Of a stretch of 16,356 bases of DNA, positions 1 through 15,867 are shown piece after piece; within the stretch, counting starts at the first letter, position 1; every line of letters starts with the position of its first letter. The translations under genes were made by a program, and so were the position numbers. The notes beneath the pieces were generated by a model. The model was not told the DNA's origin, searched no databases, and saw only the letters and a program-made list of their open reading frames with translations. The stretch is from Deltaproteobacteria bacterium (GTDB taxonomy: Bacteria > Desulfobacterota > Anaeroferrophillalia > Anaeroferrophillales > Tharpellaceae): the NCBI GenBank assembly GCA_030595135.1, contig JAUVDU010000004.1:1-16356 (forward strand), given 5' to 3'.

Positions 1-1113
1 AACACGTTCGTGGCTAAAGATGAGATCATCGAGATGCTGATTATCGGCGCTATCGCCCAGGAACATGTACTTCTGGCCGGCCCTCCGGGAACCGGGAAAT
101 CGGAACTCGTCAAACGTTTTGCCCATCTCTGTACGCCGAGAAAATATGATAATGAGCAAATCGTCCCCTACTTTGAATATCTTCTCACCCGCTTCACCGA
201 ACCGAATGAGCTCTTCGGGCCGGTCGACATCAAGACCTTTCAGGCCGGCGGCGGCTACCAGAGGATCGTCAAGGGGTTGTTACCAACAACTGAAATTGCC
301 TTCCTTGATGAAATTTTCAAGGCCAACAGTGCCATTTTAAATGCCCTTTTGACAATTCTCAATGAGAGAGTTTTTTATAACGGTGGGCAACCGGAAGATA
401 TCCCGCTGCTCTTTCTGGTCGGGGCCACCAATGAGGTTCCGGACGATCCTGATCTGGCAGCTCTCTACGACCGTTTTCCAATTCGCTTATGGTCGGATAA
501 CGTGGCTGACAACCGCTTTGCCGAGCTTATCCAATGTGGCTGGCAACAGGAGCGCCAAAAAATTCGCGACGGCCACCAGATCAGTTTAAACAATGTCGCC
601 AACTCCGACACGTTGCGCCAACTCCACCAGGCTTTAAATCAGGTCAATTTAGATGCAATCAACCACAGCTATCACGAAGCCGTTCGCCGAATTCGTTCGG
701 AAGGTATCGAGGTCAGTGATCGCCGGGCCATTAAACTCCTGAAACTGGTCGCGGCCGCCACCCTGCGTCGGGGTTCGTTAAATGCTGAAGAGCAAGATTT
801 TCACATCCTCAGACACTGCTGGAATACCAGGGAACAAGTGCCTCATTTAGAGGCGCTACTGGCCCCCTATCTTGAAAAGAGTTCATCGACAAATCGCTTA
901 CGCAGCCGTCACTTTGAAGCTCTGGCCGCCGAGATTAAGGTTCTTGAAAAACGGGCTCTTAAACTCTCAAATGATATTGATCTCGCTGACTTTCTTCATC
1001 AAGCCGAACGCTTGCGCCGGGAATTGATGGAACATCCGGAAATAGTTTTAGCTGCCCCTCACCTGCAACAACTTGAAGGTTTGATAAATGTAACCCTGGA
1101 AAATCTGGAGTAA
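1..1113 (+). CDS. MoxR/RavA-type AAA+ ATPase (5' end cut by the window)
   Basis: AAA+ ATPase of the MoxR class, a predicted chaperone-like remodelling motor that usually works with a von Willebrand A protein. Counting from the GTG at 10, the Walker A motif GPPGTGKS is at residues 24-31, the MoxR-specific stretch TRFTEPNELFGPVD at 60-73, Walker B EIAFLDE at 95-101, sensor 1 GATN at 138-141 and an arginine-finger region ALYDRFPIR near 151-159. A lid follows with DRRAIKLLKL, then a helical C-terminal region. The frame is open to base 1, and MoxR proteins normally carry about 20-30 residues before this point, so the GTG at 10 is probably not the true start. The last codon GAG and stop TAA are formed by the left end of an inserted element. 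Removing that element gives a pre-insertion end LENLDS, so the protein is altered by only one or two residues. First visible gene of the + strand cluster. Confidence 0.93.
   Translation, partial: NTFVAKDEIIEMLIIGAIAQEHVLLAGPPGTGKSELVKRFAHLCTPRKYDNEQIVPYFEYLLTRFTEPNELFGPVDIKTFQAGGGYQRIVKGLLPTTEIAFLDEIFKANSAILNALLTILNERVFYNGGQPEDIPLLFLVGATNEVPDDPDLAALYDRFPIRLWSDNVADNRFAELIQCGWQQERQKIRDGHQISLNNVANSDTLRQLHQALNQVNLDAINHSYHEAVRRIRSEGIEVSDRRAIKLLKLVAAATLRRGSLNAEEQDFHILRHCWNTREQVPHLEALLAPYLEKSSSTNRLRSRHFEALAAEIKVLEKRALKLSNDIDLADFLHQAERLRRELMEHPEIVLAAPHLQQLEGLINVTLENLE
1102..1109. repeat. Left copy of 8-bp target-site duplication
   Basis: AATCTGGA directly abuts the left inverted repeat of the element. 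The partner copy AATCTTGA is at 1298-1305. The single mismatch suggests that the insertion is not brand new or that one copy has mutated. Confidence 0.75.
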
Positions 1114-1297
1114 CTATTCAGCTATCGCTTAAAAACTGTCAGGATTGGGGTCATTGCTGGTACAAGGTGCGTCAGCACCCCAGGCTTCGCTGTGAGCGTA
1201 GCGAGGAAGCACTCTTGGGGTGTGACCCCGTTTATGTGGGCGAAGCAAAGTTCAACACAGTTAAATGTAGTTTTATGGTGGGTCGCTGAATAGTTAC
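1110..1297. mobile_element. MITE-like non-autonomous element, IS66-type ends
   Basis: A 188-bp segment bounded by perfect 13-bp inverted repeats, GTAACTATTCAGC at 1110-1122 and its complement GCTGAATAGTTAC at 1285-1297. The flanks are 8-bp near-identical direct repeats: AATCTGGA (1102-1109) and AATCTTGA (1298-1305), 7 of 8 matching. 5'-GTAA ends and 8-bp target duplications are characteristic of the IS66 family, so this is probably a MITE mobilised by such a transposase. It has no coding capacity. The interior is self-complementary: CACCCCA (1176-1182) pairs with TGGGGTG (1216-1222), and GCTT/CGCT (1184-1191) pairs with AGCG/AAGC (1200-1210). GGGGTCA (1147-1153) and GCTTCGC (1184-1190) have alternative partners at 1223-1229 and 1240-1246. 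It separates moxR from the rest of its cluster and may affect read-through. Confidence 0.85.
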
Positions 1298-1325
1298 AAT
1301 CTTGATTCATAAGGACAAAAGCAAA

Positions 1326-2114
1326 ATGTGTAATCCTCGTAAAGTCATGATCCATGTCGCTCAGAGTATTGAGGAGGCCTGGAGAAAAACGATCGTAGAG
1401 TGTACTACGGCCGAAGATGAGGTCAAGCAAATCGCCTCTATCTCAGCAAACATTGAACTCGACCGAGAGATGGGAGAGGCGGCTCTTGAGATGCTGGAGC
1501 GGGTTCTGGCCGGCGATTTTCCCGACCATGAAGCCTGGTCACGCAATGAAGATGGCGATTTTGTCAAGGCTCTTGAAGATATTACACTCTGTTACCAGCC
1601 CCGCACCCGGCAACTGACAATGACCGCCCATTTAGACCGCATGGTAAACGCTGAAGCCGAGGCGGCAAGCGAAGTCTGTGGAGTTACAAGCGGTGAAATC
1701 GCCTTTGAAGCCATCGGCCATTACTATGAAGACGGTTGGAAAGACCGCACCGAAGAACGCGCCCTGAAAGAGGCTCAACAACAGGTTGAAATTCGCCTGG
1801 CCCGGGCGCTGAACAAACTTCATGAAGAACAGCAGCAAAAGCAAACCGTAAGCAAAAGAGAAGATTTACAACAAGAGGCCCAAGCTCAAGCTTTGCTAAA
1901 GCTTGAGGAGAACAAAAAAGAAGTGCGCACGGCTCTGCGGCAACAACTCCAGTCAGAACTCGCCAACCGCCGCCAGGAAGCCTTTTACACAATCAACCGT
2001 GCCGTCGGTGAAGCCTATCGTCAAACTCTATGCAAGCTCGTCTTAGACAACGGCGGCCGCATCATCAGTGACCGCCAAAGCGGCAGCGTTATTGATCTGG
2101 AATTAGAGATTTAG
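1326..2114 (+). CDS. 262-aa MoxR-cluster accessory protein, possibly DUF1257/Ycf35-like
   Basis: Start taken at ATG 1326, preceded by AAGGA (1311-1315) with a 10-nt spacer. The longer TTG start at 1302 lies partly in the target duplication and lacks a Shine-Dalgarno site. The first ~150 residues are acidic with mixed alpha/beta character. Residues ~145-210 are rich in Q, E, K and R and probably form a long helix or coiled coil. The C-terminus (AYRQTLCKLVLDNGGRII...GSVIDLELEI) has the pattern of an alpha/beta end followed by a final strand. It resembles the C-terminal pattern of DUF1257 (Ycf35) proteins, which travel with DUF2997 proteins and AAA ATPases. That assignment is my inference from pattern memory only. 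The function is unknown; it is probably an adaptor or regulator of the MoxR-vWA complex. No signal peptide or membrane segment. Confidence 0.85.
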   Translation: MCNPRKVMIHVAQSIEEAWRKTIVECTTAEDEVKQIASISANIELDREMGEAALEMLERVLAGDFPDHEAWSRNEDGDFVKALEDITLCYQPRTRQLTMTAHLDRMVNAEAEAASEVCGVTSGEIAFEAIGHYYEDGWKDRTEERALKEAQQQVEIRLARALNKLHEEQQQKQTVSKREDLQQEAQAQALLKLEENKKEVRTALRQQLQSELANRRQEAFYTINRAVGEAYRQTLCKLVLDNGGRIISDRQSGSVIDLELEI

Positions 2115-2127
2115 AGGAAATGATAAA

Positions 2128-2382
2128 ATGAGTAATAAACGTCCTCCGGTAAAGATTAAATTCAAATATAACATTGAAACCGGAACTATTGAAGAGTTTA
2201 TCATTGATGATAACGCCGCCGGGGCCAGCGAGGAGTATCATGACCGGGTGGCCGAAAAAATCGCGGAACTTTTAGCCCGCAATCCGGAAATTTTCGATGC
2301 CGGCCCCCGCCGCCAAGCCGAAGCTCTGGCCGCCAGGTTAAACAAAAAAGATAAATTGAAACCGATCACAATTAAATCATAA
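2128..2382 (+). CDS. 84-aa small accessory protein, possibly DUF2997-like
   Basis: Strong Shine-Dalgarno AGAGGA (2113-2118) with a 9-nt spacer before ATG 2128, 13 nt after the preceding gene. The N-terminus is strand-like (KIKFKYNIETGTIEEFIID) and a charged helix follows (RVAEKIAELLARNPEIF). The order 'larger DUF1257-like protein, then very small beta-alpha protein' recalls the DUF1257-DUF2997 pairing seen beside AAA ATPases, and the opening strand-turn-strand fits DUF2997 loosely. The conserved cysteine of typical DUF2997 members is absent, so this is tentative. Translation of the next gene may be coupled to this one. Confidence 0.85.
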   Translation: MSNKRPPVKIKFKYNIETGTIEEFIIDDNAAGASEEYHDRVAEKIAELLARNPEIFDAGPRRQAEALAARLNKKDKLKPITIKS

Positions 2383-2393
2383 TATCTTTGCCT

Positions 2394-4211
2394 ATGACCT
2401 CTCTCAGCACCATATTAAGTGAACAGGCCGCCCAGATAACGCCGCGGGGCACGCCGGTACTCCACAGTGAAAGGGTTTACTGTGTCACTTTTTCGCCGGA
2501 TGGCCGTTATCTGGTTTCAGGTTCGGTCAATCGCCAGGTCAATGTCTGGGAGGTGGGTACGACCAAACTTTCAGACTACATGAAGGGCCACACCAAATTT
2601 GTCTGGTCACTCGCCTTTTCTCCCGATGGCAAAACTCTGGCTTCGGCCTCCGGTGACGGCACCGTATTTCTCTGGAACATGGAAAAACGCAGCCATTTCC
2701 GTATCGAAGAGAGTCACTACGCCATCGTTTTACCGCTCTACGGGGTCGCCTACTCTCCGCAAAATGACTATTTTGCCGCAGGCTGTGCCGACGGTGTTGT
2801 CCGTCTCTGGAGCACCACCTCTAAACGCCCGCCCTGGAAACTCAAAGGTCACAAGAGTGAGATCTACAGTGTTGCCTTCTCCCCCGATGGCCGTTTTCTG
2901 GCCTCTGGAGGCAATGATAGTACAGTTCGCATCTGGAATGTCGCAGATAAATGTGAAGAGGAGATTCTCTCCCGCCCCGGCTGCCGGGTCACCTCGGTCG
3001 CGTTTTCACCCAACGGTTGTTTGCTGGCCTACGCCTCGACCAATACCCATATCTATATTGTCAATCTGGCCGATGGTGAAAGTCAGATTTTAAGCGGCCA
3101 CCAAGATCTGGTCTGGAGTATCGCGTTCTCCCCCGACAGTCGTTTGCTGATCTCCGGCGCTAACGACCGCAGCGTCCGCCTCTGGGAGGTTGAGAGCGGC
3201 CAGCAAATTCAGATATTGGAAGGTCATCAAAACGATGTTAACAGCGTCGCTTTCTCTCCCGACGGCCTTTTGGCGGCTTCGGCTTCAGATGACCGAACGG
3301 TTAGAGTCTGGGATTTAAGTCTACTCAATGAACGGCCCGAAACCTATCTCCGTCTCGTAACTAAACAGAAAAAAGCGGCGGCTATTGAAAAAAATTCCGA
3401 CATACGCCCTAAAAAATATCTTGATAAATATCTCAATCCCGACCACCTGGCTGAAATAATCCCACCAGAAAGCCTGCCCCAGACGGTAACCGATCTCTAC
3501 AGCCAACTGCTAACCATGACCCCGAAACTTACATTTACCGATCATCGCGGCAGCCAGACCTACAGTTGCGGCGGCTATCATGGCCTGACTCATAAAGGCG
3601 GTCTGGATAATCTTGCTTTAAGTGAACATCTCTATCCGGAAGCCCTTTTACAGCATCGCATCTTAAACCGCGAAGCGCTCTATTACGGCCGCGAGGGAGA
3701 ACGTGAAAAACGTCGCCGGGTAACTTTGATTATCACGCAGAGCGGCCTCGAGATGAGGGGCACAACTAATCACTTGGCCCAGGCTCTAACCCTGGCCGCA
3801 ATCATCCGTTTGAGTAATCTCGGAGGCGATCTGCGCCACTCTTTTTTCGGCAGCGGCTGGACACCGCCGCTTGATCCCTTAAGCCCCGGCAACAGCCGAA
3901 AACTGCTCGATCGGCAAGACCATGAAGGTCTCAATCTTAAGGAAAATTTTACTTTACTAAAAGATCAGCTGCGTATCTGGCAGGAAAACTATCATCAAAT
4001 TGAGACTCTCTGGATTATCGACCGTCATTTTGCCGCTGACCGAAAAAGAAACTATCTTAAGCGAACCATACAAGAGATTCATAATTTGAGCCGACATCGA
4101 GCCTGGTTTATCAGCCTAAACCCCAACGCTTCGGCACCACCGTCGACATCCGACCTTTTTCATCAACATCGACAAATCGTGATGTCAAATGACAAAATCA
4201 CAATGCTCTAA
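2394..4211 (+). CDS. WD40 seven-bladed beta-propeller fused to a degenerate vWA domain
   Basis: Predicted core scaffold of a MoxR-vWA-beta-propeller ternary system. Residues ~25-310 hold seven WD40 repeats with clear 'VAFSPDG...LASGS.D.TVRVWD' signatures (for example VYCVTFSPDG, VWSLAFSPDG, IYSVAFSPDG, VNSVAFSPDG, each ending in a W-D/E/N dipeptide), enough for one closed propeller. After a basic linker, residues ~390-560 resemble the vWA of these systems: CGGYHGLTHKGGLDNLALSE, then RRVTLIITQSGLEMRG followed by a helix and SFFGSG. The DxSxS MIDAS is replaced by TQSGLEM, so metal binding is probably lost. The start is ATG 2394; a TTG at 2388 adds two residues, and neither has a good ribosome site, suggesting coupling to the gene 11 nt upstream. 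The protein should gather clients through the propeller and contact the MoxR ATPase through the vWA. Confidence 0.92.
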   Translation: MTSLSTILSEQAAQITPRGTPVLHSERVYCVTFSPDGRYLVSGSVNRQVNVWEVGTTKLSDYMKGHTKFVWSLAFSPDGKTLASASGDGTVFLWNMEKRSHFRIEESHYAIVLPLYGVAYSPQNDYFAAGCADGVVRLWSTTSKRPPWKLKGHKSEIYSVAFSPDGRFLASGGNDSTVRIWNVADKCEEEILSRPGCRVTSVAFSPNGCLLAYASTNTHIYIVNLADGESQILSGHQDLVWSIAFSPDSRLLISGANDRSVRLWEVESGQQIQILEGHQNDVNSVAFSPDGLLAASASDDRTVRVWDLSLLNERPETYLRLVTKQKKAAAIEKNSDIRPKKYLDKYLNPDHLAEIIPPESLPQTVTDLYSQLLTMTPKLTFTDHRGSQTYSCGGYHGLTHKGGLDNLALSEHLYPEALLQHRILNREALYYGREGEREKRRRVTLIITQSGLEMRGTTNHLAQALTLAAIIRLSNLGGDLRHSFFGSGWTPPLDPLSPGNSRKLLDRQDHEGLNLKENFTLLKDQLRIWQENYHQIETLWIIDRHFAADRKRNYLKRTIQEIHNLSRHRAWFISLNPNASAPPSTSDLFHQHRQIVMSNDKITML

Positions 4212-4238
4212 TGTAATATCTAAGGAACCAGCAACAAC

Positions 4239-4919
4239 GTGGAAAATATAGCGCAAAATCTTTTAAAAACAGAACTCTGGCGGCGGGCGGCCCGACATTT
4301 TACGCAAGCCGACCTCCACTCTGAGAGTGCTGCCGCCTGGCTCGCAGCCGGTCATAATGATGAGGCTATCAACGCCTTGCTTAAAACCGACGACCGAGCC
4401 CAGACAACTGCGCTGCTGCTTAAGGCGGGACACTATAAAGAGGCTGCGGAACAAGCCCGTCTCTGGCTTAAAGAGATTAAGCAAGAACCCAAGCGACAAG
4501 CTGAAGAAAAAATTCGGGCTCTTCTGCTTCTCGCTACAGCCCTTCATCTTGATCTGCAACCGAATCAGGCCCTTACGGCCTACGACAGCGCTCGTGAAAA
4601 ACTAAGCCAATTAAGCAAAGAGTTACCGCCTTTGACCAACGCCAAAAACTGGGAAGCCCTGGCCGCTTATGGAGTTATGGTCAAACGCCCGGATCTGGTT
4701 CGCTTAGGCTATGAAAAAGCTCTTGCCGCCTACGGCCAAACCTTAAATCTGCAAAGACTGCGCTGTCTCGAAGAATACCTTGAAAATGTCGCGGATGATT
4801 TTTATCTGAGTCAAGAGCTCAAAGAACGCCGGGCTGACTGGCAGCCAAAAAGCAACATGAAACGAGAGAGAGAACGCCTCTGGGAGGCTCTGACAGAGTT
4901 CGAGGATGATTTACGATGA
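4239..4919 (+). CDS. 226-aa TPR-like helical repeat protein
   Basis: GTG start at 4239 with AAGGA (4222-4226) 12 nt upstream, 27 nt after the propeller gene. The protein is almost entirely helical. Its first ~80 residues are short degenerate helix pairs of the form 'AARHF..ADLHSESAAAWLAAGHNDEAINALLK...TALLLKAGHYKEAAEQARLWL', typical of TPR/Sel1-like superhelices. A charged second half follows, and the C-terminus is acidic (FEDDLR). No signal peptide or membrane segment. Its stop overlaps the next start as ATGA, so the two proteins are probably made in fixed ratio. A similar helix pair forms the C-terminus of the next gene, suggesting shared origin or interaction. Likely a protein-interaction component of the ternary system; no enzyme motif seen. 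Confidence 0.85.
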   Translation: MENIAQNLLKTELWRRAARHFTQADLHSESAAAWLAAGHNDEAINALLKTDDRAQTTALLLKAGHYKEAAEQARLWLKEIKQEPKRQAEEKIRALLLLATALHLDLQPNQALTAYDSAREKLSQLSKELPPLTNAKNWEALAAYGVMVKRPDLVRLGYEKALAAYGQTLNLQRLRCLEEYLENVADDFYLSQELKERRADWQPKSNMKRERERLWEALTEFEDDLR

Positions 4920-6259
4920 CTAAAAACGAACAAAATATGGCCCTGTCCCGTCCTGAAATTTTTAAGGCGCAACTGTTTAAAGTCCCTCGACAACCATTGT
5001 CTAGTGCATACATCCTTTTCACCGAGGCACTCTTGCCCCTGATTGCCCGTTACCTACAGCGTCAACAGATACGTTTTAAAGTATCAGCCCTCCTGAACCA
5101 ACCAAAGGAGGGGCAAAAGAGGCTGATCCTTTTCGGCCCGGATTTTGAGGAGAACAAAAAAACTCTGCCCCGTTTTGTCCTCTCGTACCTTCAGAAATTA
5201 CCCCACTGCCGGCTTTTCTATCGACTCTGTTCGAAGAGCGATACGAACCAGAAAAACCCAAAAGATAGCGCCGGATTTCTGGTTGAATATGGTTTTCAAC
5301 ACCCTCTGTCGGCTTCTGAAATTAGCAATAATTTACAGGCTGAAACCCTCTACCTCATTTTCGGCGACCGCCAACGCCCGGCCCTGATTATCGAGCCAGC
5401 TCCAGCCCTGAAAAATGACTGCGACCTGAGTAAACCGGTCTCCGGCATCGAAAAACCGCAAATTCCTTTTGATTCGGATGAAACCGCTGCCCAACCGTTA
5501 CGCCTGCAGGTCAAATTGCGCCTTATTGTTGATCAGAAGGCTCCGGCTCCGACCCAAGCTCTCTACTTTGCCAGCCAGGAATTAAAATGGCTTGAAACCC
5601 TTTTACAACACCTGCCCGGCCCCCTGCTCGCCCACCTACGCTGGGCCGGAGACCGTGAACACGGAATTCTCCTCCTACCGGAAGATGAAACTATCTCTCT
5701 CTTTCCTTTTGCCGAACCACTTAAAAAAGTAAAAAACAATCTCTTTCTCCCGCTCGGACAAAGCTTACGCCCGCAATTGACCGACCCCCAACTAGATAGC
5801 ACCCTGGCTCTGATGCCTGAAAAACTGACGTTCCTCACCCGAAACTTACGTTTTGATATTGCGAAAAAAGATTTTCGGCCTCTAGACAAAATGATTACCG
5901 CGTCAATCGCACTCTCCACAACCTTGAAATTCTCCGACCCGGATGTTCCCTTTGATTTTGTCTGGCAGCATCGCGATTTAAGCGAGGAAGACAATCAATC
6001 GGTGGCTGTCACCGATAAAAAAACCGAGACACCCGATAAACCGACACCGTTAACCATCACCAGAAGAGAAGAAAACAACAAGCAAAACCGTATATCCCCC
6101 AGCAAGCAGGCAAACGCTCCAACTGAAACCTTAAAGGAATATGCCCTTTTACTACGCCGTCAAAACGATTTCCTCGGTGCCGCAACCTGTTTCTCTTTAG
6201 CCGAAGAGCCTCTACCCGCAGCTGAATGTTACCGCTTGGCGGCTCTCACTTTAGAATAG
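4916..6259 (+). CDS. 447-aa protein with probable bpX-type domain and C-terminal TPR-like tail
   Basis: Starts at an ATGA overlap with the upstream gene, with GAGG about 10 nt before the ATG. Residues ~20-160 hold an alpha/beta segment. Residues ~200-345 form a strand-rich region with GDREHGILLLPEDETISLFP, LFLPLGQSLRPQL, then LTFLTRNLRFDI and FRPLDKMI. The 'LPLG..L.P' stretch and the position beside the vWA-propeller gene recall the bpX family of domains defined for MoxR-vWA-beta-propeller ternary systems. I cannot say which bpX number. A low-complexity linker (~345-395, rich in T, K, E, P and N) leads to a helical pair FLGAATCFSLAEEPLPAAECYRLA, like repeats in the preceding protein. Catalytic activity is not evident. 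Its stop lies at a 12-bp tandem duplication. Confidence 0.87.
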   Translation: MTKNEQNMALSRPEIFKAQLFKVPRQPLSSAYILFTEALLPLIARYLQRQQIRFKVSALLNQPKEGQKRLILFGPDFEENKKTLPRFVLSYLQKLPHCRLFYRLCSKSDTNQKNPKDSAGFLVEYGFQHPLSASEISNNLQAETLYLIFGDRQRPALIIEPAPALKNDCDLSKPVSGIEKPQIPFDSDETAAQPLRLQVKLRLIVDQKAPAPTQALYFASQELKWLETLLQHLPGPLLAHLRWAGDREHGILLLPEDETISLFPFAEPLKKVKNNLFLPLGQSLRPQLTDPQLDSTLALMPEKLTFLTRNLRFDIAKKDFRPLDKMITASIALSTTLKFSDPDVPFDFVWQHRDLSEEDNQSVAVTDKKTETPDKPTPLTITRREENNKQNRISPSKQANAPTETLKEYALLLRRQNDFLGAATCFSLAEEPLPAAECYRLAALTLE

Positions 6260-6279
6260 CAAATGGAATAGCAAATGGA
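6256..6279 (+). repeat. 12-bp tandem duplication across a stop/start junction
   Basis: ATAGCAAATGGA occurs twice in a row (6256-6267 and 6268-6279). The first copy contains the TAG stop of the 447-aa gene and a spare ATG (6263) that reads only ATG-GAA-TAG. The second contains the start ATG (6275) of the 95-aa gene. It looks like a recent slippage duplication that moved the downstream start 12 nt further from the upstream stop. Confidence 0.9.
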
Positions 6280-6562
6280 AAAAACTGAACAGAGTATCAA
6301 TCGTGATTACTTAAAGGGCCTGATCAGCGAGTTTGACCTGGGCATGGCGGAAGATTCGAACGTTGCAGCACAAGATCAACCCTCACGAAAAGAGAGTGAG
6401 GATATTTGCCTGCCGCCGCTGCTGGTAAAGGCTTTTCAGAGCGGACTTGAAGAAGAGCTCAGAGATTGTAACTGCGGCTGCGGCGACGGTCAACATGACT
6501 GCACTCAAGCTGCCTCTTCGTCAGCTCATAATGGTTGCGGAGGTTGCAAACATCATGGCTAA
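6275..6562 (+). CDS. 95-aa protein with Cys/His-rich C-terminus
   Basis: The first ~60 residues are acidic and partly helical (DYLKGLISEFDLGM; LPPLLVKAFQSGLEEEL). The last 31 carry a dense cluster with Cys at 65, 67, 69, 76, 88 and 91 and His at 74, 85, 93 and 94 (CNCGCG...HDC...HNGCGGCKHHG), plus an isolated Cys45. This could bind zinc, copper or an iron-sulfur cluster, or be a redox or anchoring tail; it does not match a zinc-ribbon spacing I know. It starts at ATG 6275 in the second copy of a tandem repeat, without a strong Shine-Dalgarno site, and overlaps the next gene by 8 nt. Family not recognised. The context makes it a part of the MoxR-vWA-propeller cluster. Confidence 0.75.
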   Translation: MEKTEQSINRDYLKGLISEFDLGMAEDSNVAAQDQPSRKESEDICLPPLLVKAFQSGLEEELRDCNCGCGDGQHDCTQAASSSAHNGCGGCKHHG

Positions 6563-6785
6563 GGAAAAATCTTGCCCCATACCGATCAAGATTGTTACAA
6601 GCCTGCCCGATTTGATCCAACCGGAAGATTACCGGAACTGTACCGAACAGAAAAAAATTCGCCTGCGCATCTCAATCAATGAAAACGGAGTTGAAATCCT
6701 CGGTGACAGCCTCTATGTTGAACCGTTGGAAAAACTGCTGGCCTCCAGCGGAGCCAGATTACTGGAACGAAGTTTATGCGGTTAA
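6555..6785 (+). CDS. 76-aa small hypothetical protein
   Basis: Start chosen at ATG 6555, 8 nt before the end of the 95-aa gene. The frame extends upstream to 6447, but that part overlaps the Cys-rich gene and reads as an out-of-frame translation of it. The protein (MAKEKSCPIPIKIV...) has a basic start, a strand-turn-strand KKIRLRISINENGVEILG, then a helix EPLEKLLASSGARLL, ending in CG. No family recognised. It overlaps the next start by 10 nt, so it lies inside a translationally coupled block. Confidence 0.72.
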   Translation: MAKEKSCPIPIKIVTSLPDLIQPEDYRNCTEQKKIRLRISINENGVEILGDSLYVEPLEKLLASSGARLLERSLCG

Positions 6786-7918
6786 TAAGTGATGACAGCA
6801 ACCTGATCAGCACAATTCTGAGCGGCTTTTTAAATTTTTTGACAACCGACCGGAAAGCGGATTTCTTCGTCTTAAACACCCCTCTACTCTGCCCGGACGG
6901 TGAAATTATTCGTAATTTGAGTTCCTTACCTTCAACTGAGCTGAAACAAGCCTGGCAAAAGCAAATTGAGGGGGCAGCGGTTGATCAACTTTTACTCATT
7001 GAACCGGGAACAGTTATAACCGTTACTCCCGCGTTGACCGCTCTGGCAATAGTTACGTATAATTTTTTAAAACTTCATGCGCCAGCAATGCTGGAAAAAG
7101 ATAAAAAAGCGGTCCTTGACTACAACCTTCAACTTTGTCACACCATTGTCCCAGCCGAAAATCCCTTTCTCGGGATCATTTATGACAGCCTGATTGAACC
7201 CTGCTGTCAGCTGTGGCGAAAAAATCCACCTAAAACAACAGCGGAAAACCATTTACTGGCCGCCCTGCTCCGAACAAATCCCTTGAGCGAGCTTAAAAAT
7301 ATCGATCTTCTCCTACCGGCCCCACTCAAAAACCTGGCCGGCAGCTATCTGGTTCATCAACCGGAAGATCAAGAGAGTCATGATCGAACCAAGCCGGACG
7401 CGACCGCTAAAAACAACTATCAGCAGTGGTGGTTTCAGGCTGAGAAATTTATCCTCACCCCGCCGTTAAAAAGGCTTTTACGGGATCAATGGTTAAGCAT
7501 ACCGGAAAACAGCTTAAGCTGTATGGGACTGGGAATCTTTTTAGAAGAGTTACGACGCCGGGGGAAAAAGCAGTTTCGCACCCCGATACTTGAATTTTTT
7601 GAAGCCTACGACTACCTCCAGCATCACCAGGCCCAAAAGGAAGGCACCCTTTGCAGCTATAAAAAACTAACGATCATCCGTCATCTTCTGGAATCAAAAA
7701 ACCGTGAGCATAACCGGAAAGGCAATGAGTACTTCCTCAAATTCAGAGCTCTGCTTGAGATTGTTGCCGCAGAACAAGCAATTCCCAGAGAATTTCTTCA
7801 TCTAAGCCGCAAACTCTGCCTCCAACACCTAGCCCCCCTCTCAACCTTGGCCACCATCATCGGTGGTGAGCGCATAACCATGACACCGACATTCGGCACG
7901 ATTCAATTTTCCGATTAG
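6776..7918 (+). CDS. 380-aa hypothetical protein, last gene of the MoxR-vWA-propeller cluster
   Basis: ATG 6776 overlaps the preceding gene by 10 nt. The product is mostly helical with short strands (KADFFVLNTPLL; VDQLLLIEPGTVITV). Features include a moderately hydrophobic stretch ALTALAIVTYNFLKL near residues 85-100 (too short and polar to be a sure membrane helix) and an aromatic, basic central segment (NNYQQWWFQAEKFIL...PLKRLLRDQWL). A charged helical region with SYKKLTIIRHLLESKNREHN follows, and the C-terminus is strand-like (ITMTPTFGTIQF). No nuclease, NTPase or protease motif is visible. It could be the effector or the specificity part of the system, but that is only inferred from its position as a non-core gene. 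It converges on thpR 43 nt away. Confidence 0.83.
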   Translation: MRLISDDSNLISTILSGFLNFLTTDRKADFFVLNTPLLCPDGEIIRNLSSLPSTELKQAWQKQIEGAAVDQLLLIEPGTVITVTPALTALAIVTYNFLKLHAPAMLEKDKKAVLDYNLQLCHTIVPAENPFLGIIYDSLIEPCCQLWRKNPPKTTAENHLLAALLRTNPLSELKNIDLLLPAPLKNLAGSYLVHQPEDQESHDRTKPDATAKNNYQQWWFQAEKFILTPPLKRLLRDQWLSIPENSLSCMGLGIFLEELRRRGKKQFRTPILEFFEAYDYLQHHQAQKEGTLCSYKKLTIIRHLLESKNREHNRKGNEYFLKFRALLEIVAAEQAIPREFLHLSRKLCLQHLAPLSTLATIIGGERITMTPTFGTIQFSD

Positions 7919-7961: not shown

Positions 7962-8501
7962 TCATTCACTCAACAAATAGTCCGCCTCAAGCCGGTGCAA
8001 AGCCCCTTTTGGAGTCAGGACACTGGAATAAAGATAAAAATTGGCTACGGTAAATTCCGGCAGGCAAAAAAGGGCATGATCGCCAAGAAAGCGAGCTATT
8101 CTTTTCAAAGGGGTTTTGGGGGTGCGAGCCAGCGTGATGTGGGGTGAAAATTTACGCTGTTCAGGAGCGACGCCAAGTTTAGCGAGACAACTGTCCACTC
8201 TTTTTCGCAACGCCATAAGCTCAACCGACTCTTCTATCCCCACCCAAAGTACCTGAGGTGCCCGGCGCGGCGGAAAACAGCCTAACCCCTTTAAATACAA
8301 AGGGAAAGAGTTGCCGGTTACTGATTCCAGCGCACTCTTAAGCTCCTGAAAAAGAGCCCCGTCAACCTCTCCGATAAAACGCAAAGTCAAATGAATCTGC
8401 TCGGGTTTAACCCAACGGGCTTGGGGCAGGCCGAAACTAATCAAGGCGAGTTCGTCCTTAATCTTTTTCGGCAGATCGATAGCAATAAAGAGTCTCATCA
8501 T
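7962..8501 (-). CDS. thpR: RNA 2',3'-cyclic phosphodiesterase (ThpR/LigT family)
   Basis: 2H phosphoesterase superfamily protein; the E. coli homologue hydrolyses 2',3'-cyclic phosphate on RNA ends. It begins with the family's RLFIAIDLP strand and has both catalytic HxTL motifs: HLTL (about residue 37-40, in QIHLTLRFIGEV) and HITL (about 121-124, in FSPHITLART). Length (~179 aa) is normal. Three consecutive start candidates occur, TTG 8504, ATG 8501 and ATG 8498; an ATG is preferred. It begins about 11 nt after the dctM stop with no strong ribosome site of its own, so it is probably expressed as the last gene of the pyrK-to-dctM operon. No functional link to the transporter is evident. Confidence 0.92.
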   Translation of the reverse strand: MMRLFIAIDLPKKIKDELALISFGLPQARWVKPEQIHLTLRFIGEVDGALFQELKSALESVTGNSFPLYLKGLGCFPPRRAPQVLWVGIEESVELMALRKRVDSCLAKLGVAPEQRKFSPHITLARTPKTPLKRIARFLGDHALFCLPEFTVANFYLYSSVLTPKGALHRLEADYLLSE

Positions 8502-8512
8502 CAATTTTGATT

Positions 8513-9775
8513 CTACCCGGTGACAAAAATTTCAACCAGAAGCAGACTTAAGAGGGGAAAGTAGGTTATAATCAGAAGCGTTATCAAAAGAAGGCCGACA
8601 AAAGGCAGAGTGGCTCGATAGAGCTCGGCAATGGGCCGCTCAAAGCGATAGCTGGCGAGAAAAAGATTGAGTCCCACCGGCGGCGTACAGTAACCGATCT
8701 GGAGGTTGGTGAGAAAAATAATGCCCAGATGAATAAGGTCAACATCATAGGCTTGAGCAATCGGCACGATCAGCGGAACCACCAAAACCAGGGCGGAAAA
8801 GATATCGAGCAGAGCCCCGACCAGCAAAAGAAAAATGTTTAAAACCATCAGGAATGTATATTTATTGGTAATATACTCCCTGATCCACTCAAAGAGGCGT
8901 TGGGGAACTTCCTGATCGACAAGAAAATTGGTCGAAGCCATTGAAGCGGCCAGAACCACGAGGATGCCGCCGAAAAGAACCATACTATGAACCATGATTT
9001 TCGGCAGTTGAGACAGTGAAATATCCTTATAAATAAAGACTTCGACGACTAAAACATAGAGGGCGGTTACGGCTGCCGCCTCACCCACCACCAAAAAACC
9101 GCCATAGATTCCCCCGAGGACAACAACCGGCAGCGGCAACTCCCAGGCTACCTCCCTTAAAACCGCAACCAGCTCACGCCTCGAAGTTACCGCCGGAGAT
9201 TTTTTCACCCCTCTCCCCTGCTTAATACAATAACCGGCCAGCAACAGCAACATGACAAGTCCGGGCAGGATACCGGCCAAGAAAAGTTGATCGATCCGCG
9301 CCCCGGAGATGACCCCGTAAAGGATAAGCGGCAGACTCGGCGGAAAGAGAAGCCCTAAGCTCCCGGATGAGGTTAAGAGACCGAGGGAGAAACGTTCAGG
9401 ATAGTTATCTTTCAGCAAAGCCGGGAAAAGAATCCCACCGACGGCAAAAATCGTCACCCCGGAAGCTCCGGTAAAAGCTGTAAAAATCGCACAGACAAAT
9501 AGCGACACCACGGCCAGACCGCCGGGCAGCCAACCCAACAAGCCTTGCGAGAGTTTTAACAACCTTTGTGGTGTACCCGATTCCGAAAGCAGGCTCCCGG
9601 CAAAGATAAAGAGGGGTAGAGAGAGTAAAAGAGGGGTGTCAGCCAAACGCGACATCTCGATCACGACAACCGATAGATCGATGCCGACACCATAAAAAGA
9701 GATCAGTGCCAGAGCCGCAATCACCACAAACAGCGGGCTACCGAGCAGGGCCAAGGCAAAAACAATAAATTTCAT
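8513..9775 (-). CDS. dctM: TRAP transporter large permease subunit (DctM)
   Basis: Large integral membrane subunit of a tripartite ATP-independent periplasmic transporter, which moves a solute using a sodium or proton gradient. The 420-aa protein is highly hydrophobic, with about 11-12 predicted membrane segments. It carries family signatures: FTGASGVTIFAVGGILFP, LLTSSGSLGLLFPPSLPLILYG and, near the end, NLQIGYCTPPVGLNLF. Its ATG overlaps the dctQ TGA by one base (TGATG), giving translational coupling. The substrate cannot be read from the sequence. Confidence 0.97.
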   Translation of the reverse strand: MKFIVFALALLGSPLFVVIAALALISFYGVGIDLSVVVIEMSRLADTPLLLSLPLFIFAGSLLSESGTPQRLLKLSQGLLGWLPGGLAVVSLFVCAIFTAFTGASGVTIFAVGGILFPALLKDNYPERFSLGLLTSSGSLGLLFPPSLPLILYGVISGARIDQLFLAGILPGLVMLLLLAGYCIKQGRGVKKSPAVTSRRELVAVLREVAWELPLPVVVLGGIYGGFLVVGEAAAVTALYVLVVEVFIYKDISLSQLPKIMVHSMVLFGGILVVLAASMASTNFLVDQEVPQRLFEWIREYITNKYTFLMVLNIFLLLVGALLDIFSALVLVVPLIVPIAQAYDVDLIHLGIIFLTNLQIGYCTPPVGLNLFLASYRFERPIAELYRATLPFVGLLLITLLIITYFPLLSLLLVEIFVTG

Positions 9776-10299
9776 CAGGTTGATCCGGAGATTGGTCTTG
9801 AAGAGCTGCTTTGGGGGTGGAGCAGGGTATTGCCATGATCAAAAACTTTAGCCGAAAAACGCGCCGTCATCAAAGCAAAAGCGAACGGGAATATGAGGTT
9901 CCAGACCCAAACGGGAATACCGATAAGTTCTCGCCCACTGCCAAAAACGATCTCATTTTTGATAAATAAAAAGGCGGCCCAAGTAAGAAAACCGCAGACC
10001 ACTGCGGCAAAGAGATTGAGAACAAGGTTGAGCCAAAGAAGCCCTCGGGCCGGCAATAGATGAGAAAAAATATCGATCGTAATGTGTTTGCCATATCTGG
10101 TTGCCAGAGCCGCTCCGAGCATCCCGACCCAGAGGACAAGATGCCGTAACAGAGGATCGGCCCAAACAAAACCACTGTCAAAAAGAGTACGCATGAAGAT
10201 CTGGAGAGAAGCGAGAAAAATCATAGCCAGCAGAAGAAAAGAGATAAAAACCTCTTCGACCTGGTTAAAGCGGCGGCCAAGATTTTTCAGGATTTTCAA
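9775..10299 (-). CDS. dctQ: TRAP transporter small permease subunit (DctQ)
   Basis: Small four-helix membrane subunit that pairs with DctM and helps dock the binding protein. The 174-aa sequence has four hydrophobic segments and the family motif region WADPLLRHLVLWVGMLGAALATRYGKHITID (matched in parts: LRHLVLW, GAALATR, HITID). It starts with TTG (10299) preceded by AAGGGG and an 8-nt spacer, a strong ribosome site that supports the non-ATG start. It lies 20 nt after dctP and shares a base with dctM. The C-terminal tail is short, Ser-rich and cytoplasmic. Confidence 0.95.
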   Translation of the reverse strand: MKILKNLGRRFNQVEEVFISFLLLAMIFLASLQIFMRTLFDSGFVWADPLLRHLVLWVGMLGAALATRYGKHITIDIFSHLLPARGLLWLNLVLNLFAAVVCGFLTWAAFLFIKNEIVFGSGRELIGIPVWVWNLIFPFAFALMTARFSAKVFDHGNTLLHPQSSSSRPISGST

Positions 10300-10319
10300 G
10301 AGAGCTACCCCTTATGCCA

Positions 10320-11363
10320 TCACGGGTTGGATTTACGATAATTATTAAGAATAGTCATCAGTTCATTATAGATTTCGGCAGAAAAATATTTCCCGACACT
10401 CTCCTCCACAATCTGATCACGAAGCCCGATTAGAACCGGGTTGGCAGCAGGATCCGCCGCTATCACGGTAATCCCGTTGGCCTTTAGCGTCTCCAGAGCT
10501 TCGATATTGGTACGCCGGGTATCATCTTTAAGTTTTTCGGAAAAATATTTTCCAGCCGCCTGCTTGATGATAGCAAGATGGCTTTCAGGCAATCGATCAA
10601 GTGCTTTCTTGTCAAAAACCAGACCACCATAAGCATAAGCAAAGGGAACATCAGTGATATAGTTGATCTTGGTAAACCACTGCAGGATAATCGATCCGTA
10701 ATAACCGTTAAAAACCGTATTAACCATACCGGTCTGCAGAGAGACCAAAACATCCGGCAAAGAGAGCGGAATCGGAGAGATTCCGACCGCTTCCATAAAA
10801 GCAAGACTGATCGGGTCGCCTTCCGGAGCCCAGCACTTGCACTTTCTGAGATCTTCAATCGTGGAGATTGGAATTGTCGACATCGTATAGATGAAACCAA
10901 CTTCAGACATCGCAATAAGAACCATATTTTTCTTGGCAAAAGCTTCAACATAGCGCGGCATCAGTTTTTCCAGAACTTCATCAACCTCCTCGTAGGATTG
11001 AAAAAGATAGGGAATACCCATAACCCGAAAATCAGATACAATCTCACCAATGCCGGTCATCGTGAAACCGGCACCCTGTAGCTGACCGATCTTCATTTTA
11101 CGAAACATTGCCCGATCATCGCCCATAACGCCACCGGGATAGACCCTGAAACCGACTTCTCCCCCGCTCTGTTCTTTGACCTCTTGGGCAAACTGGTCAA
11201 AACGCAAAGCCCAGATACTGCCTTCGGGAGCCAGGCTAGCCATTTTAAAGAGATATTTCGGCCGTTTAGCCTCCACCTCACTAACAACCGTACAGAAATT
11301 TAAGAGGAAAATAAAAAGTAAACATAGGAGGCCGAAGCTATAACTATTTTTCCACAAACGCAT
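10320..11363 (-). CDS. dctP: TRAP transporter periplasmic solute-binding protein (DctP family)
   Basis: Extracytoplasmic solute receptor delivering substrate to DctQM. It has an N-terminal secretion signal (basic MRLWKNS, hydrophobic core to ~residue 27, probable cleavage after VEA32), followed by the DctP fold: KMASLAPEGS, YPGGVMGDDRAMFRKMKIGQLQG, FRVMGIPYLF, VSLQTGMVNTVFNG. In most DctP proteins an arginine in the 'GLKIRV' strand binds the substrate carboxylate. Here that place reads KCKCWAPEG (about 174-182), with Trp in the Arg position. This suggests a non-carboxylate or hydrophobic ligand, consistent with the TatT partner. ATG 11363 has AAAGGA 10 nt upstream. 347 aa is usual length. Confidence 0.95.
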   Translation of the reverse strand: MRLWKNSYSFGLLCLLFIFLLNFCTVVSEVEAKRPKYLFKMASLAPEGSIWALRFDQFAQEVKEQSGGEVGFRVYPGGVMGDDRAMFRKMKIGQLQGAGFTMTGIGEIVSDFRVMGIPYLFQSYEEVDEVLEKLMPRYVEAFAKKNMVLIAMSEVGFIYTMSTIPISTIEDLRKCKCWAPEGDPISLAFMEAVGISPIPLSLPDVLVSLQTGMVNTVFNGYYGSIILQWFTKINYITDVPFAYAYGGLVFDKKALDRLPESHLAIIKQAAGKYFSEKLKDDTRRTNIEALETLKANGITVIAADPAANPVLIGLRDQIVEESVGKYFSAEIYNELMTILNNYRKSNP

Positions 11364-11377
11364 AATTTAAAATTCCT

Positions 11378-12247
11378 TTAGAATATGTCGTCAATCCGCT
11401 CTAAAAGTTCCGCCGCCTTTTTCCAGGCCAATCGGTTGGCGGTTGCCATTTCATTATCAACCAGCGGCTGCGAGAGAACTTCCTTAAGTAGCGTTTCAAA
11501 GAGCTCTCGATTAAAAGTCTGCCGAGCATAACCATCAGCATAAGCAACCTGGGCCGGCCAAAATTGGCGCTGGCTCAAAGTCAAAGCTCGCTCAAAATGG
11601 CGGCGACCAACTTCCGGTTTACCTCCCAACATCGGCGACAAGGAACAATAGATACTCCCCAAGACAAGATGAGCCGAACCGAAATAGGTAGACTCATCAA
11701 GTTCAATCACCCGTAACATCATCTCTTCGACCTTCGGTAGATCGGCCATGGCCGCCGGAGTGCCTCCCTGCAATTTAATCCACAAAGCCCAGGCTTGTCC
11801 ACCCCAGAAGAGATCAACGGCATCAGCTTTGGTAAAAGATGACAAGGATTGTTTGAAAGCGGTCAGCGGTTGTTTGATGTTCTCCTTGAATTTTAGCTTT
11901 TGATCAAGCAGTTCAAAACCGTAAAACTTAGCTTTTTCACTGGCCAACCGAGCTCTTTCCGGTTTACTGGTTTCATCGAGTAAAATAGCATAAGCGCTGA
12001 AGGCTCGGGTTCCGGTTCTTAGCAGGGCCGGATTTCCGGGATCTGACTTGATAAACCCGTTGATCATCAAAAGCAGCGTCGGACTGCCGTCGACAAGCAG
12101 ATCGATATCGGTCTCTTGTTCCAACGAACGGCTCAGAGATTCAAGCAACGGATCAACTACAAGCGATGCGCAACCATTAAGGCCCAAGAGCAAAAAGAGG
12201 AGAACCAACCGGCAAAGAATTGCTTTTACAAACCTTCTTTTATTCAT
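11378..12247 (-). CDS. tatT: TRAP transporter T-component lipoprotein (TatT family)
   Basis: TPR-containing lipoprotein that partners with a TatP-type TRAP binding protein, as described for Treponema pallidum TatT. The signal peptide has a basic start, a leucine-rich core and a lipobox LNGC with the lipidated cysteine at residue 26. The rest is helical: ERARLASEKAKFYGFELL, a FWGGQAWALWIKL motif, then YFGSAHLVLGSIYCSLSPMLGGKPEVGRRHFERAL, typical of the family's TPR-like repeats. The order tatT-dctP-dctQ-dctM, with 14 nt to dctP, matches TRAP-T operons. It begins 19 nt after pyrD with no strong ribosome site. TatT is thought to trimerise and bind the solute receptor. Confidence 0.9.
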   Translation of the reverse strand: MNKRRFVKAILCRLVLLFLLLGLNGCASLVVDPLLESLSRSLEQETDIDLLVDGSPTLLLMINGFIKSDPGNPALLRTGTRAFSAYAILLDETSKPERARLASEKAKFYGFELLDQKLKFKENIKQPLTAFKQSLSSFTKADAVDLFWGGQAWALWIKLQGGTPAAMADLPKVEEMMLRVIELDESTYFGSAHLVLGSIYCSLSPMLGGKPEVGRRHFERALTLSQRQFWPAQVAYADGYARQTFNRELFETLLKEVLSQPLVDNEMATANRLAWKKAAELLERIDDIF

Positions 12248-12266
12248 ATTTCAACTTTGATGGTTT

Positions 12267-13178
12267 TTATGCTAGAGAACCGATAAAATCGGTTACTTTA
12301 ACGCACCCCTGTTCATCAAGATACTTTTCAACCCCTTCGGCAATTTCGATGGCAGCTCGGGGATTAATAAAGTTGGCTGTACCTACCTCAACGGCGGTGG
12401 CTCCGGCCAACAGAAACTCCAGGGCGTCACGGGCGTTTGAAATGCCGCCAATCCCGATGATCGGTATTGACACAACCTGGGCTACTTGATAAACCATGCG
12501 CAGGGCTACAGGTTTGATGGCGGGTCCGGAAAGGCCGCCGGTAACATTTCCCAGAACCGGGCGTTTTCGATCGAGATCGATGGCCATGCCAATTAAGGTA
12601 TTGATCAAAGAGAGGGAGTCGCTGCCAGCCTCCTCCACCGCTTTGGCAACCATGACAATGTCGCTGACATTGGGAGAGAGTTTGGTGATTAAGGGCAGTG
12701 ATGTTTTTTTACGCACCGCAGCTACCAGTTTTGCGGCGGCTTGAGGATCGATTCCGAACTGAATCCCTCCGGCCTTGACATTGGGACAGGAGATGTTGAT
12801 TTCAAGGGCGGCAATTCCGATAATTCCATCCAGTTTAGCAGCCAAGTTCGCATAATCATCCTGGTTGTTGCCGAAGATGTTGACGATTACAGTAGCGTTC
12901 AATTTTTGTAAAATCGGCAATTCGTCAGTAAGAAATCGTTCCACGCCAATATTTTCCAGACCGATGGCATTGAGCATGCCGCAGGCAGTTTCGGTAATTC
13001 TAACTCCCGAGTTACCGATTTTCGGTTGCCAAGACAGGCCTTTGGTTATTATCGCTCCAAGTTTAGATATGTCAAAATAGGGTGCATATTCACGGCCATA
13101 ACCAAAGGTTCCGGAAGCTGTCAGTACCGGGTTTTTTAAAGTCACTCCGGGGGCAATTTCGACTTTGAGATCTACCAT
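12267..13178 (-). CDS. pyrD: Dihydroorotate dehydrogenase class 1B, catalytic subunit
   Basis: Oxidises dihydroorotate to orotate in de novo pyrimidine synthesis, passing electrons through PyrK to NAD+. FMN TIM-barrel enzyme of 303 aa. LTASGTFGYG near residue 20, SGVRITETACGMLNAIGLEN near 57-76, NISCPN with the class-1 catalytic cysteine at 131, KLSPNVSDI, GGLSGPAIKP and the FMN phosphate site IGIGGISN are all present. The start is ATG 13178, which overlaps the pyrK stop by one base (TAATG). A longer frame to 13223 only covers pyrK coding sequence. Cytoplasmic heterotetramer with PyrK is the known form. Confidence 0.97.
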   Translation of the reverse strand: MVDLKVEIAPGVTLKNPVLTASGTFGYGREYAPYFDISKLGAIITKGLSWQPKIGNSGVRITETACGMLNAIGLENIGVERFLTDELPILQKLNATVIVNIFGNNQDDYANLAAKLDGIIGIAALEINISCPNVKAGGIQFGIDPQAAAKLVAAVRKKTSLPLITKLSPNVSDIVMVAKAVEEAGSDSLSLINTLIGMAIDLDRKRPVLGNVTGGLSGPAIKPVALRMVYQVAQVVSIPIIGIGGISNARDALEFLLAGATAVEVGTANFINPRAAIEIAEGVEKYLDEQGCVKVTDFIGSLA

Positions 13179-14017: not shown

Positions 14018-14057
14018 GATCGATAAGTTTTAGACCAAATGTCAATCAATCAATCTG

Positions 14058-14087
14058 TTAATAACGGTATTTCACCCAAAAGGTCAA
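14058..14087 (-). promoter_or_regulatory. Candidate promoter for the pyrK operon
   Basis: On the minus strand TTGACC (14087-14082) lies 18 bp upstream of TATTAA (14063-14058), about 40 nt before the pyrK start region. It matches sigma-70 boxes at 5 of 6 and 4 of 6 positions. A second TTGACA (14045-14040) lies closer but has no convincing -10 box at proper spacing. No operator was recognised. Confidence 0.35.
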
Positions 14088-14102
14088 AATGTTTTTTTAA
14101 AG

Positions 14103-14116
14103 GTAACTATTCAGCG
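14103..14116. repeat. Solo terminal repeat of the IS66-like MITE
   Basis: GTAACTATTCAGCG is identical to the 14-nt outer end of the element at 1110-1297 (right end, read inward). No opposing GCTGAATAGTTAC is found nearby. A bare GTTAC occurs at 14128-14132, but the flanks show no duplication. Probably a relic or a truncated copy lying just upstream of the pyrK promoter region. Confidence 0.65.
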
Positions 14117-14142
14117 TAAGTAGAAAAGTTACAAACGCAATT

Positions 14143-14646: not shown

Positions 14647-15867
14647 TTATAGCAAATAAGAGAGGATCGTGTCACTTAAAAACATACCCTTGTCGGTTAT
14701 CCATAGATTATTCTCATCCCAATCGAGCAATCCATCGCCGCGTAACTTTTGCGCTCGAGGCATTATGGTATCAACTGTTTGCGAGCCATACTCGTCTCGC
14801 AAACCCGCAAGACCGACCCCTTGACGAAGCCTTAAACCCATCATCAGGGACTCGATAAAAGAGGTCTTACGATTAATAATCTCTTTTTCAAACCAAAGCT
14901 CAGGCCAGAGTTCGGAACTGCTGCTCCCGGCAGGCGGCGAGGCATTGAGCTGCTCAAGCCGCCGCATATATATGAAAGGGTCAGGCATGTTACAATAACG
15001 TTCAGCCCAATGCTCCAGATCTTTCCGGTAACGCCAGCCCCCGCAAGCGCCGGCCCCAAGCCCCAAATAATCGTAAAGCTGCCAGTAGGCTAGATTATGC
15101 CGGGCCCGAACCTGATGGTGACGGGCAAAATTGGAGATTTCATAGCGATGAAGACCGGCATTTTCAAAACCCTCTTCAACCAATTGCATCATCTCGGTTT
15201 GAACATCCTCAGCCACCACCTGCAGTTTTCCTGCGGCAACCGCTTGCGCCAGACGGGTTCCCGGCTCCAGGGAGAGGGAGTAAGCCGAGACATGTTCCGG
15301 CGCCAAAACTGCAAGTTTCTGCAAATCTTGGCTCAAAACGGCCGGGCTCTGCCCGGGCCAGGCATAGATCAAATCAAGGCTGAGATTTTCAACACCCTCA
15401 TTACGCAAAATATCGACTGCCTTTTCAACCATCAACCCATCATGACGACGGCCGAGAAGCTGCAACCCTTCAGGAGCAAAGGTCTGTACGCCAAGACTGA
15501 TGCGATTGATGCCGGCGGCCCGGTAACCGATGATTTTTTCCCGGCTGATATCGGCTGGATTAGCCTCAAGAGTCACTTCAGGCTCAGAGACAAAACCAAG
15601 TCTTTGAGCCAACGTATCAATGATCCGGGCATAGAAAGAAGGAGAAAAAAGGGATGGCGTCCCGCCCCCGAAATAGAGGGTGGCCAGAGGCAAAAAAGCT
15701 TGCGGCCAGCTCTTTAGACGATATTGAAACTCAACTTCAAGAGCGGCCAGATAAGCCTTTTCCGGAATCGTGTCAACCGCCACCGAGGGAAATGAACAAT
15801 AAGAGCAGCGAGAACGGCAGAAAGGAATATGGATATAAAGATGACCAACTGGTTGGAGAGAAATCAG
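14647..15867 (-). CDS. hemW: HemW-like radical SAM protein (CTG start inferred)
   Basis: Radical SAM protein of the HemN/HemW family; HemW is a heme-binding heme chaperone, distinct from true coproporphyrinogen dehydrogenase. The [4Fe-4S] motif lies at the very start: HLYIHIPFCRSRCSYCSF with Cys17, 21 and 24 when counted from a CTG at 15867. GGGTPS, LEANPADIS, GINRISLGVQTF, LSLDLIYAWPGQS, YEISNFAR and HNLAYW follow, and a C-terminal HemN-type winged region ends the protein. No ATG, GTG or TTG exists in frame between the upstream stop and the motif. The CTG overlaps the upstream TGA as CTGA and has AAGGG 9 nt before it. The GTG at 15783 would delete the cluster motif. The usual GxGAHSF-type site reads GLGAGACGG, without the His. 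Confidence 0.9.
   Translation of the reverse strand: MISLQPVGHLYIHIPFCRSRCSYCSFPSVAVDTIPEKAYLAALEVEFQYRLKSWPQAFLPLATLYFGGGTPSLFSPSFYARIIDTLAQRLGFVSEPEVTLEANPADISREKIIGYRAAGINRISLGVQTFAPEGLQLLGRRHDGLMVEKAVDILRNEGVENLSLDLIYAWPGQSPAVLSQDLQKLAVLAPEHVSAYSLSLEPGTRLAQAVAAGKLQVVAEDVQTEMMQLVEEGFENAGLHRYEISNFARHHQVRARHNLAYWQLYDYLGLGAGACGGWRYRKDLEHWAERYCNMPDPFIYMRRLEQLNASPPAGSSSSELWPELWFEKEIINRKTSFIESLMMGLRLRQGVGLAGLRDEYGSQTVDTIMPRAQKLRGDGLLDWDENNLWITDKGMFLSDTILSYLL

Follow-up and report, generated by a model that had tools for sequence, protein, structure and literature searches.

The question raised by the first half of the window, by which we mean the whole 16,356-base stretch (contig JAUVDU010000004.1, complete, of a 70.5%-complete Deltaproteobacteria bacterium genome in 415 contigs), is which kind of machine its gene cluster encodes. 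Positions 1-7918 are filled by nine open reading frames (ORFs) on the + strand, the first of which, for a MoxR ATPase, is open at the first base of the contig (Table 1); at seven of the eight junctions the neighbouring genes overlap or stand no more than 27 nt apart, the exception being the 212 nt between MoxR and fvmX2. A first-pass annotation of this DNA had recognised the single + strand cluster with MoxR, as we do, and had assigned it to the MoxR-vWA-beta-propeller ternary systems with a bpX-like protein and six unrecognised partners. The class holds, as this is a MoxR-vWA ternary system, for which a role in biological conflict has been predicted, but the member is another: we are close to certain that the locus belongs to the FtsH ternary systems and not to the bpX systems.

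Four MoxR-vWA subsystems have been defined (Kaur et al., 2020, PMC7159879). In that description, subsystem 4, the bpX systems, has its propeller C-terminal to the vWA domain, lacks FtsH, and possesses a third component with a variable N-terminus, TPR, propeller and membrane segment, whereas subsystem 3 has an FtsH-type ATPase with two AAA domains, the first of them inactive, and a divergent vWA domain whose metal-binding aspartates are sometimes missing. Subsystem 3 is described in two forms: a complex type with an N-terminal propeller, JAB, E1, Ubl-E2, E3, an EAD1-caspase effector and often a peptide-processing system, and a simple type in which an all-helical domain lies N-terminal of the vWA domain and which has either NEFF1 or a radical SAM gene with a peptide (PMC7159879).

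Four fvm families, fvmX2, fvmX3, fvmX7 and fvmRadSAM-pep (the 76-residue protein, here pep76), are found above their Pfam cut-offs in the window. The supposed bpX-like protein is fvmX7, whose bpX2 match is below cut-off (16.7 bits against 23.6, E 0.006), and of the extra genes thought to be unrecognised those of 262, 84 and 76 codons fall into known families, while those of 226, 95 and 380 codons (TPR226, Cys95 and p380) do not. No bpX family stands above its cut-off among the matches listed (the best 25 of 28 for MoxR, the best 25 of 59 for the WD40 protein), nor is there any bpX among those listed for pieces of the MoxR and WD40-vWA proteins (for the last of four propeller pieces, the best 25 of 30). 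DUF1257 and DUF2997, which the same annotation had suggested looking for, are likewise not among the Pfam matches listed for the nine proteins, and NCBIfam gave no match above a curated cut-off among those listed for the nine.

The order of the core genes was read from 16 loci (the window, L009 and L029-L042), all of which have MoxR and fvmX2. Three of them begin at a contig start with an incomplete MoxR (the window, L034 and L036); in all 13 with room for it, an FtsH-type ATPase is encoded 5' of MoxR, directly adjoining it in 12 and separated by one gene in the Nostoc locus L042. Since the window starts inside MoxR, we read it as an FtsH system cut before FtsH. These gene orders establish a predicted core operon of FtsH-type ATPase - MoxR - fvmX2 - fvmX3 - propeller/vWA - TPR226 - fvmX7. 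The FtsH-type ATPases of the 12 relatives checked have a single Walker A motif and no HExxH, and as Pfam recognised one AAA domain in each of two such proteins, the inactive first domain is taken from the description by Kaur et al. The likeness to FtsH ternary systems extends to MoxR, the divergent vWA domain, fvmX2, fvmX3 and fvmX7, the radical-SAM-associated peptide family, a propeller N-terminal of the vWA domain and, in relatives of the window locus, the FtsH-type ATPase.

How, then, is the bpX assignment to be weighed, with the extra genes as optional linked ones? The MoxR protein matches the bpMoxR profile at 223.4 bits, fvmX7 has the sub-threshold bpX2 match, and subsystems 3 and 4 are considered probably to share an ancestor (Kaur et al., PMC7159879). 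However, the bpMoxR profile also matches in 12 of 14 control genomes, E. coli among them, and is therefore not diagnostic; the window propeller is N-terminal, not C-terminal, to the vWA domain; and the four fvm families and the FtsH-type ATPase of the relatives belong to the other subsystem. No third component of the subsystem 4 type was recognised by Pfam among the nine genes, the stretch upstream of MoxR lying outside the contig. The bpX systems share MoxR, vWA and propeller with the window locus; the assignment to them we regard as largely refuted and very improbable. The MoxR motifs are intact (P-loop GPPGTGKS, Walker B IAFLDE, AAA_5 match of 91.3 bits); the variant P-loop GXXXTAKS, described as frequent (Kaur et al., 2020, PMC7159879), is not that of the window protein and is present in L009, L038 and L040.

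The WD40-vWA fusion proposed in the first-pass annotation is borne out, although not by Pfam, which finds no vWA and no other family in residues 329-607 even at E up to 1. A seven-bladed WD40 propeller occupies about residues 28-313, and an AlphaFold2 model and fold search reveal a C-terminal vWA domain at about residues 440-607, with matches to Midasin and NorD (the likely start is the ATG at 2394, in a frame open from the TTG at 2388). Its DxSxS metal site reads TQSGLEM, and the metal-site aspartate is missing in all 28 rows compared. Homologues of the window vWA domain carry PF03781 or PF07603 domains, reminiscent of the vWA-lectin sensors described for MoxR ternary systems linked to diversity-generating retroelements (PNAS 2024, PMC10907252), which similarly have a vWA protein with an exchangeable domain but differ in that the vWA partner in the window is a conserved WD40 propeller. 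In relatives, the WD40-vWA protein has either ~600-620 or ~720-790 residues (L031, L029 and L009 compared), and that of L031 has an extra stretch between propeller and vWA that is helical by eye.

The locus fits neither form of subsystem 3 exactly. It differs from the propeller type in combining propeller and peptide with Cys95 and p380 and in having no JAB or fvmX1 that could be found, and from the simple type in having a propeller in place of the all-helical vWA partner, with the peptide family present. Profiles for fvmJAB_N and fvmX1 found nothing in the six fvmX2 genomes of the order (70-98% complete; the genome-wide search did not extend to profiles for E1, E2, E3 or caspase), whereas both are present in the two genomes outside the order (Acidobacteriota and Nostoc), L042 having fvmJAB and fvmX1 and L041 a ThiF-type E1. 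Among radical SAM families, HemW alone was named for the window; NEFF1 was not searched by name. The locus would be a compact version of the FtsH ternary systems, and one that draws attention to three proteins of no Pfam family: TPR226, Cys95 and p380.

Two of these three flank pep76, whose gene shares 8 nt with that of Cys95 and 10 nt with that of p380, with identical overlaps in the relative L010. Cys95 consists of a leader-like N-terminal part and a C-terminal tail rich in Cys, His and Gly, and evolves fastest of the nine genes (dN/dS 0.34 and 55% identity to L010). The C-terminus of pep76 reads ERSLCG, and each of its 34 homologues has LCG as the last three residues; in the window, the last Gly codon is partly fixed by the overlap with the start codon of the next gene. 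There are 43 homologues of p380, and an AlphaFold2 model computed from the window protein together with 33 of them has a mean pLDDT of 84.6; a structure search with p380 gave no significant match to solved structures. In seven loci (the window, L030, L009, L035, L037, L039 and L085), pep76 and p380 are adjacent, with a full Cys95 5' of them in six: the pair lies 3' of the core in the window and L030, 5' of it in L009, L035, L037 and L039, and alone, on a contig other than that of the core, in genome G193 (L085). These placements establish Cys95 - pep76 - p380, as far as gene order can, as a cassette of three overlapping genes that can be parted from the core, co-occurs with it and changes place while staying with it in the genomes examined.

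That the cassette could be an independent operon for a RiPP-like (ribosomally synthesized and post-translationally modified peptide) product, merely beside the core, is suggested by its solitary position in G193 and by the tight overlaps of its genes with one another. Against this, the six genomes with fvmX2, of 297 in the phylum, are also the ones with fvmRadSAM-pep, the other 291 having none, and among 12 genomes tested for p380 these six alone have it, so that the downstream genes do keep company with the rest, as the first-pass annotation had supposed. Random placement would give such co-occurrence with a chance of ~1e-12, a figure that is overstated, five of the six genomes being of one genus; by the same token, shared descent lessens the weight of the co-occurrence. 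We nevertheless consider the independent operon distinctly unlikely, and the cassette very probably functionally coupled to the core. A pep76 profile built from close relatives found none in L041 or L042.

All nine genes are maintained, given their approximate dN/dS of 0.06-0.34 relative to L010. The expectation of more parts than a ternary core is upheld. The lowest values are those of fvmX3 (0.06) and MoxR (0.07), with TPR226, p380 and fvmX7 at 0.23-0.25; Cys95, fvmX7 and p380 are the most diverged (55-65% identity), while MoxR is 89% identical and, through its 5' truncation, ~20 residues shorter than that of L010. TPR226 has a weak TPR_2 match (E 0.19; TPR_14 at E 0.008 in the L013 homologue), and plain phmmer finds it in 10 loci including the window, all of the type of this order; matches in L041, L042 and L051 were rejected as profile drift. 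In the Nostoc locus, two proteins at or near the TPR226 position (L042:7005-8510 and L042:11139-12647) have a C-terminal PF03781 (FGE-sulfatase-like) domain.

The fuller reading that we favour, that this is a sub-type of the FtsH ternary systems that has a peptide cassette and lacks the JAB/fvmX1 part of the ubiquitin-like branch, working by the following mechanism, seems to us reasonably probable. The propeller/vWA protein would be a sensor-scaffold, its vWA domain docking on the MoxR ring as in NorD or Midasin, with a protein contact replacing the metal. A signal on the propeller might lead MoxR and the FtsH-type unfoldase to remodel an assembly of fvmX2, fvmX3, fvmX7 and TPR226, releasing or exposing two small proteins; p380 might hold pep76 and Cys95 or bring about their maturation, the invariant Cys-Gly terminus of pep76 could be a handle for modification or joining, and the infected cell would stop growing or die. 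The steps of sensing, remodelling and release we infer from how MoxR-vWA pairs are known to be used and from the order of the parts. Whether the propeller is the sensor appears evenly balanced; an anti-phage role is possible, though somewhat short of an even bet, and we suggest only tentatively, with a shade more doubt, that the small proteins are effectors.

The same parts might instead form a chaperone machine that inserts metal cofactors or assembles proteins, comparable to NorQD, RavA-ViaA or Midasin, with Cys95 as a metal carrier and no role in conflict. The vWA matches to Midasin and NorD, the Cys/His-rich tail of Cys95 and the lack of a recognised effector domain in the Pfam scan would all suit such a machine, but its presence is patchy (6 of 297 genomes in the phylum, 5 of 7 in the genus), the metal-site aspartate of the vWA domain is gone, no metalloenzyme gene is common to the flanks of five relatives as read by eye, and the Cys tail of Cys95 is lost in L009. 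On balance we think it unlikely, if deserving of attention. The genus concerned, which we take to be Candidatus Tharpella, is reportedly named in one paper on Auka vent sediments (PMC9213671).

Several observations tell against the peptide-cassette reading of an FtsH system. An FtsH gene was not found in the 70.5%-complete window genome, which gave just distant AAA matches; the propeller blades show conservation, not hypervariability; and L009 keeps a leader-like Cys95 frame that has lost the Cys-rich tail. Pfam recognised neither a dedicated radical SAM gene nor a metallopeptidase family among the nine genes, nor any domain of known toxicity. Only one of five close relatives (L012) has a related radical SAM gene beside the core, and its family is present in nine of nine genomes tested, three of them without fvmX2. 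PADLOC returned weak AAA matches, one weak TPR226 match and a single candidate model, HEAT-ARM_XIII (88.2 bits), which covers the WD40 repeats over just 129 of its 1972 positions. In phage, plasmid and viral-contig collections fvmX2 was not found, and these thus give no direct indication that the locus is mobile. Finally, peptide processing is mostly paired with the ubiquitin-like type in the survey of Kaur et al. (PMC7159879), so that the peptide and ubiquitin branches are not exclusive in general. Full-text literature searches found no experiment on FtsH ternary systems. Convergent radical SAM genes (Pfam Radical_SAM) adjoin the core in both L012 and L042; we take these to be AmmeMemo-like.

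A further question is whether the Cys-Gly end has a counterpart elsewhere. Genomes holding fvmX2 also carry a cluster of an AAA ATPase that we take to be of the Ycf46 type, a DUF1257 gene (by Pfam) and a gene that we presume to be DUF2997. A small Cys-Gly protein is found in 11 of 297 genomes and ends in CG in all 11 and in LCG in 10; in five clusters it has 63-70 residues and is encoded directly 5' of the AAA gene (L043:4991-8930 in the window's own genome, L044, L047, L049 and L050), which makes five of the 10 Ycf46-type clusters, L045, L048, L051 and L052 being without it and L046 being cut. Upstream in L044 are a 505-residue protein of no Pfam family and a HEAT-repeat protein, and in L051 (820-1912), from another family of the phylum, the DUF1257 gene is directly 3' of a radical SAM gene (Fer4_12), with an FGE-like gene close by.

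Profile-profile comparison of pep76 with the small protein of these clusters gave a probability of 0.5 with 6 against 5 sequences and no realignment, and a score of 19.64 (probability 11.8, E 0.0025) with 34 against 11, which was reached by 1 of 200 column-shuffled controls; the Cys-Gly ends fall outside the local alignment. This similarity between the two families is weak and no more than suggestive. The likeness between the systems lies in an AAA ATPase, the adjoining Cys-Gly protein in half of the clusters, and their presence in the same genomes; they differ in that no MoxR or vWA was seen in the clusters and that DUF1257 and DUF2997 have no profile similarity to fvmX2 and fvmX3. Both homologies had looked plausible by eye and were rejected (probability 0.1 for fvmX2-DUF1257, 0.0 for fvmX3-DUF2997 and 0.2 in reverse), and a probability of 99.3 between FtsH and the Ycf46-type AAA is uninformative, as any two AAA domains would reach it. 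It is a long shot that pep76 and the Ycf46-side protein are two branches of one Cys-Gly-tailed family found beside AAA ATPases or with their systems, with Cys-Gly as a chemical handle (for attachment to a target or modification by a radical SAM enzyme), the cassette doing the work of the ubiquitin-like conjugation branch, and the conflict system having borrowed from a Ycf46-like housekeeping machine; our low estimate takes into account that the Cys-Gly protein is in only five of 10 clusters and that Kaur et al. link peptides mostly to the ubiquitin-like type. Literature searches, whose terms did not include the tail, pointed to no description of a Cys-Gly tail. With the tail of pep76 as a testable feature, a small biochemical experiment could address which products such systems release and by what means.

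Table 1. Features of the window (coordinates in bases; aa, amino acids).
Feature	Position	Strand	Basis and remarks
MoxR AAA+ ATPase	1..1113	+	PF20030 bpMoxR 223.4 bits; 5' end cut by contig start
MITE-like insertion, 188 bp	1110..1297	.	ends are perfect inverted repeats of 13 nt; lies between MoxR and fvmX2
fvmX2, 262 aa, N-terminus MCNPRKVMIH	1326..2114	+	PF20000 128.7 bits, cut-off 27
fvmX3, 84 aa	2128..2382	+	PF19999 65.7 bits, cut-off 27
WD40 propeller-vWA fusion	2394..4211	+	PF00400 in seven stretches; vWA by fold
TPR226, TPR-like helical, 226 aa	4239..4919	+	no Pfam family above cut-off
fvmX7, 447 aa	4916..6259	+	PF20005 65.2 bits, cut-off 24
Cys95, 95 aa	6275..6562	+	no Pfam family; aligned with 5 relatives
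pep76, fvmRadSAM-pep, 76 aa	6555..6785	+	PF20007 80.3 bits, cut-off 27
p380, all-alpha, 380 aa	6776..7918	+	no Pfam family
HemW-type radical SAM gene	14647..15783	-	NCBIfam TIGR00539

The gap between MoxR and fvmX2, which in L010 is an overlap of 8 nt, contains the insertion resembling a miniature inverted-repeat transposable element (MITE), the left end of which includes the MoxR stop codon. Of 126 candidate copies of the element in its own genome, 40 were scored and 38 of those proved to be matches; most are fragments, and six copies, counting that of the window, are near full length. On the - strand at 7962-16355, the named genes are ordinary (RNA 2',3'-cyclic phosphodiesterase, TRAP transporter, PyrD and its electron-transfer subunit, HemW and an IclR-type regulator), 3 of the 10 having no NCBIfam match; HemW is a housekeeping gene and was not counted as a partner of pep76. 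The L010 contig (Tharpella aukensis) starts with a restriction-enzyme subunit-like gene (3-2033) and ends with an integrase-like gene (15972-16352), both judged by eye.

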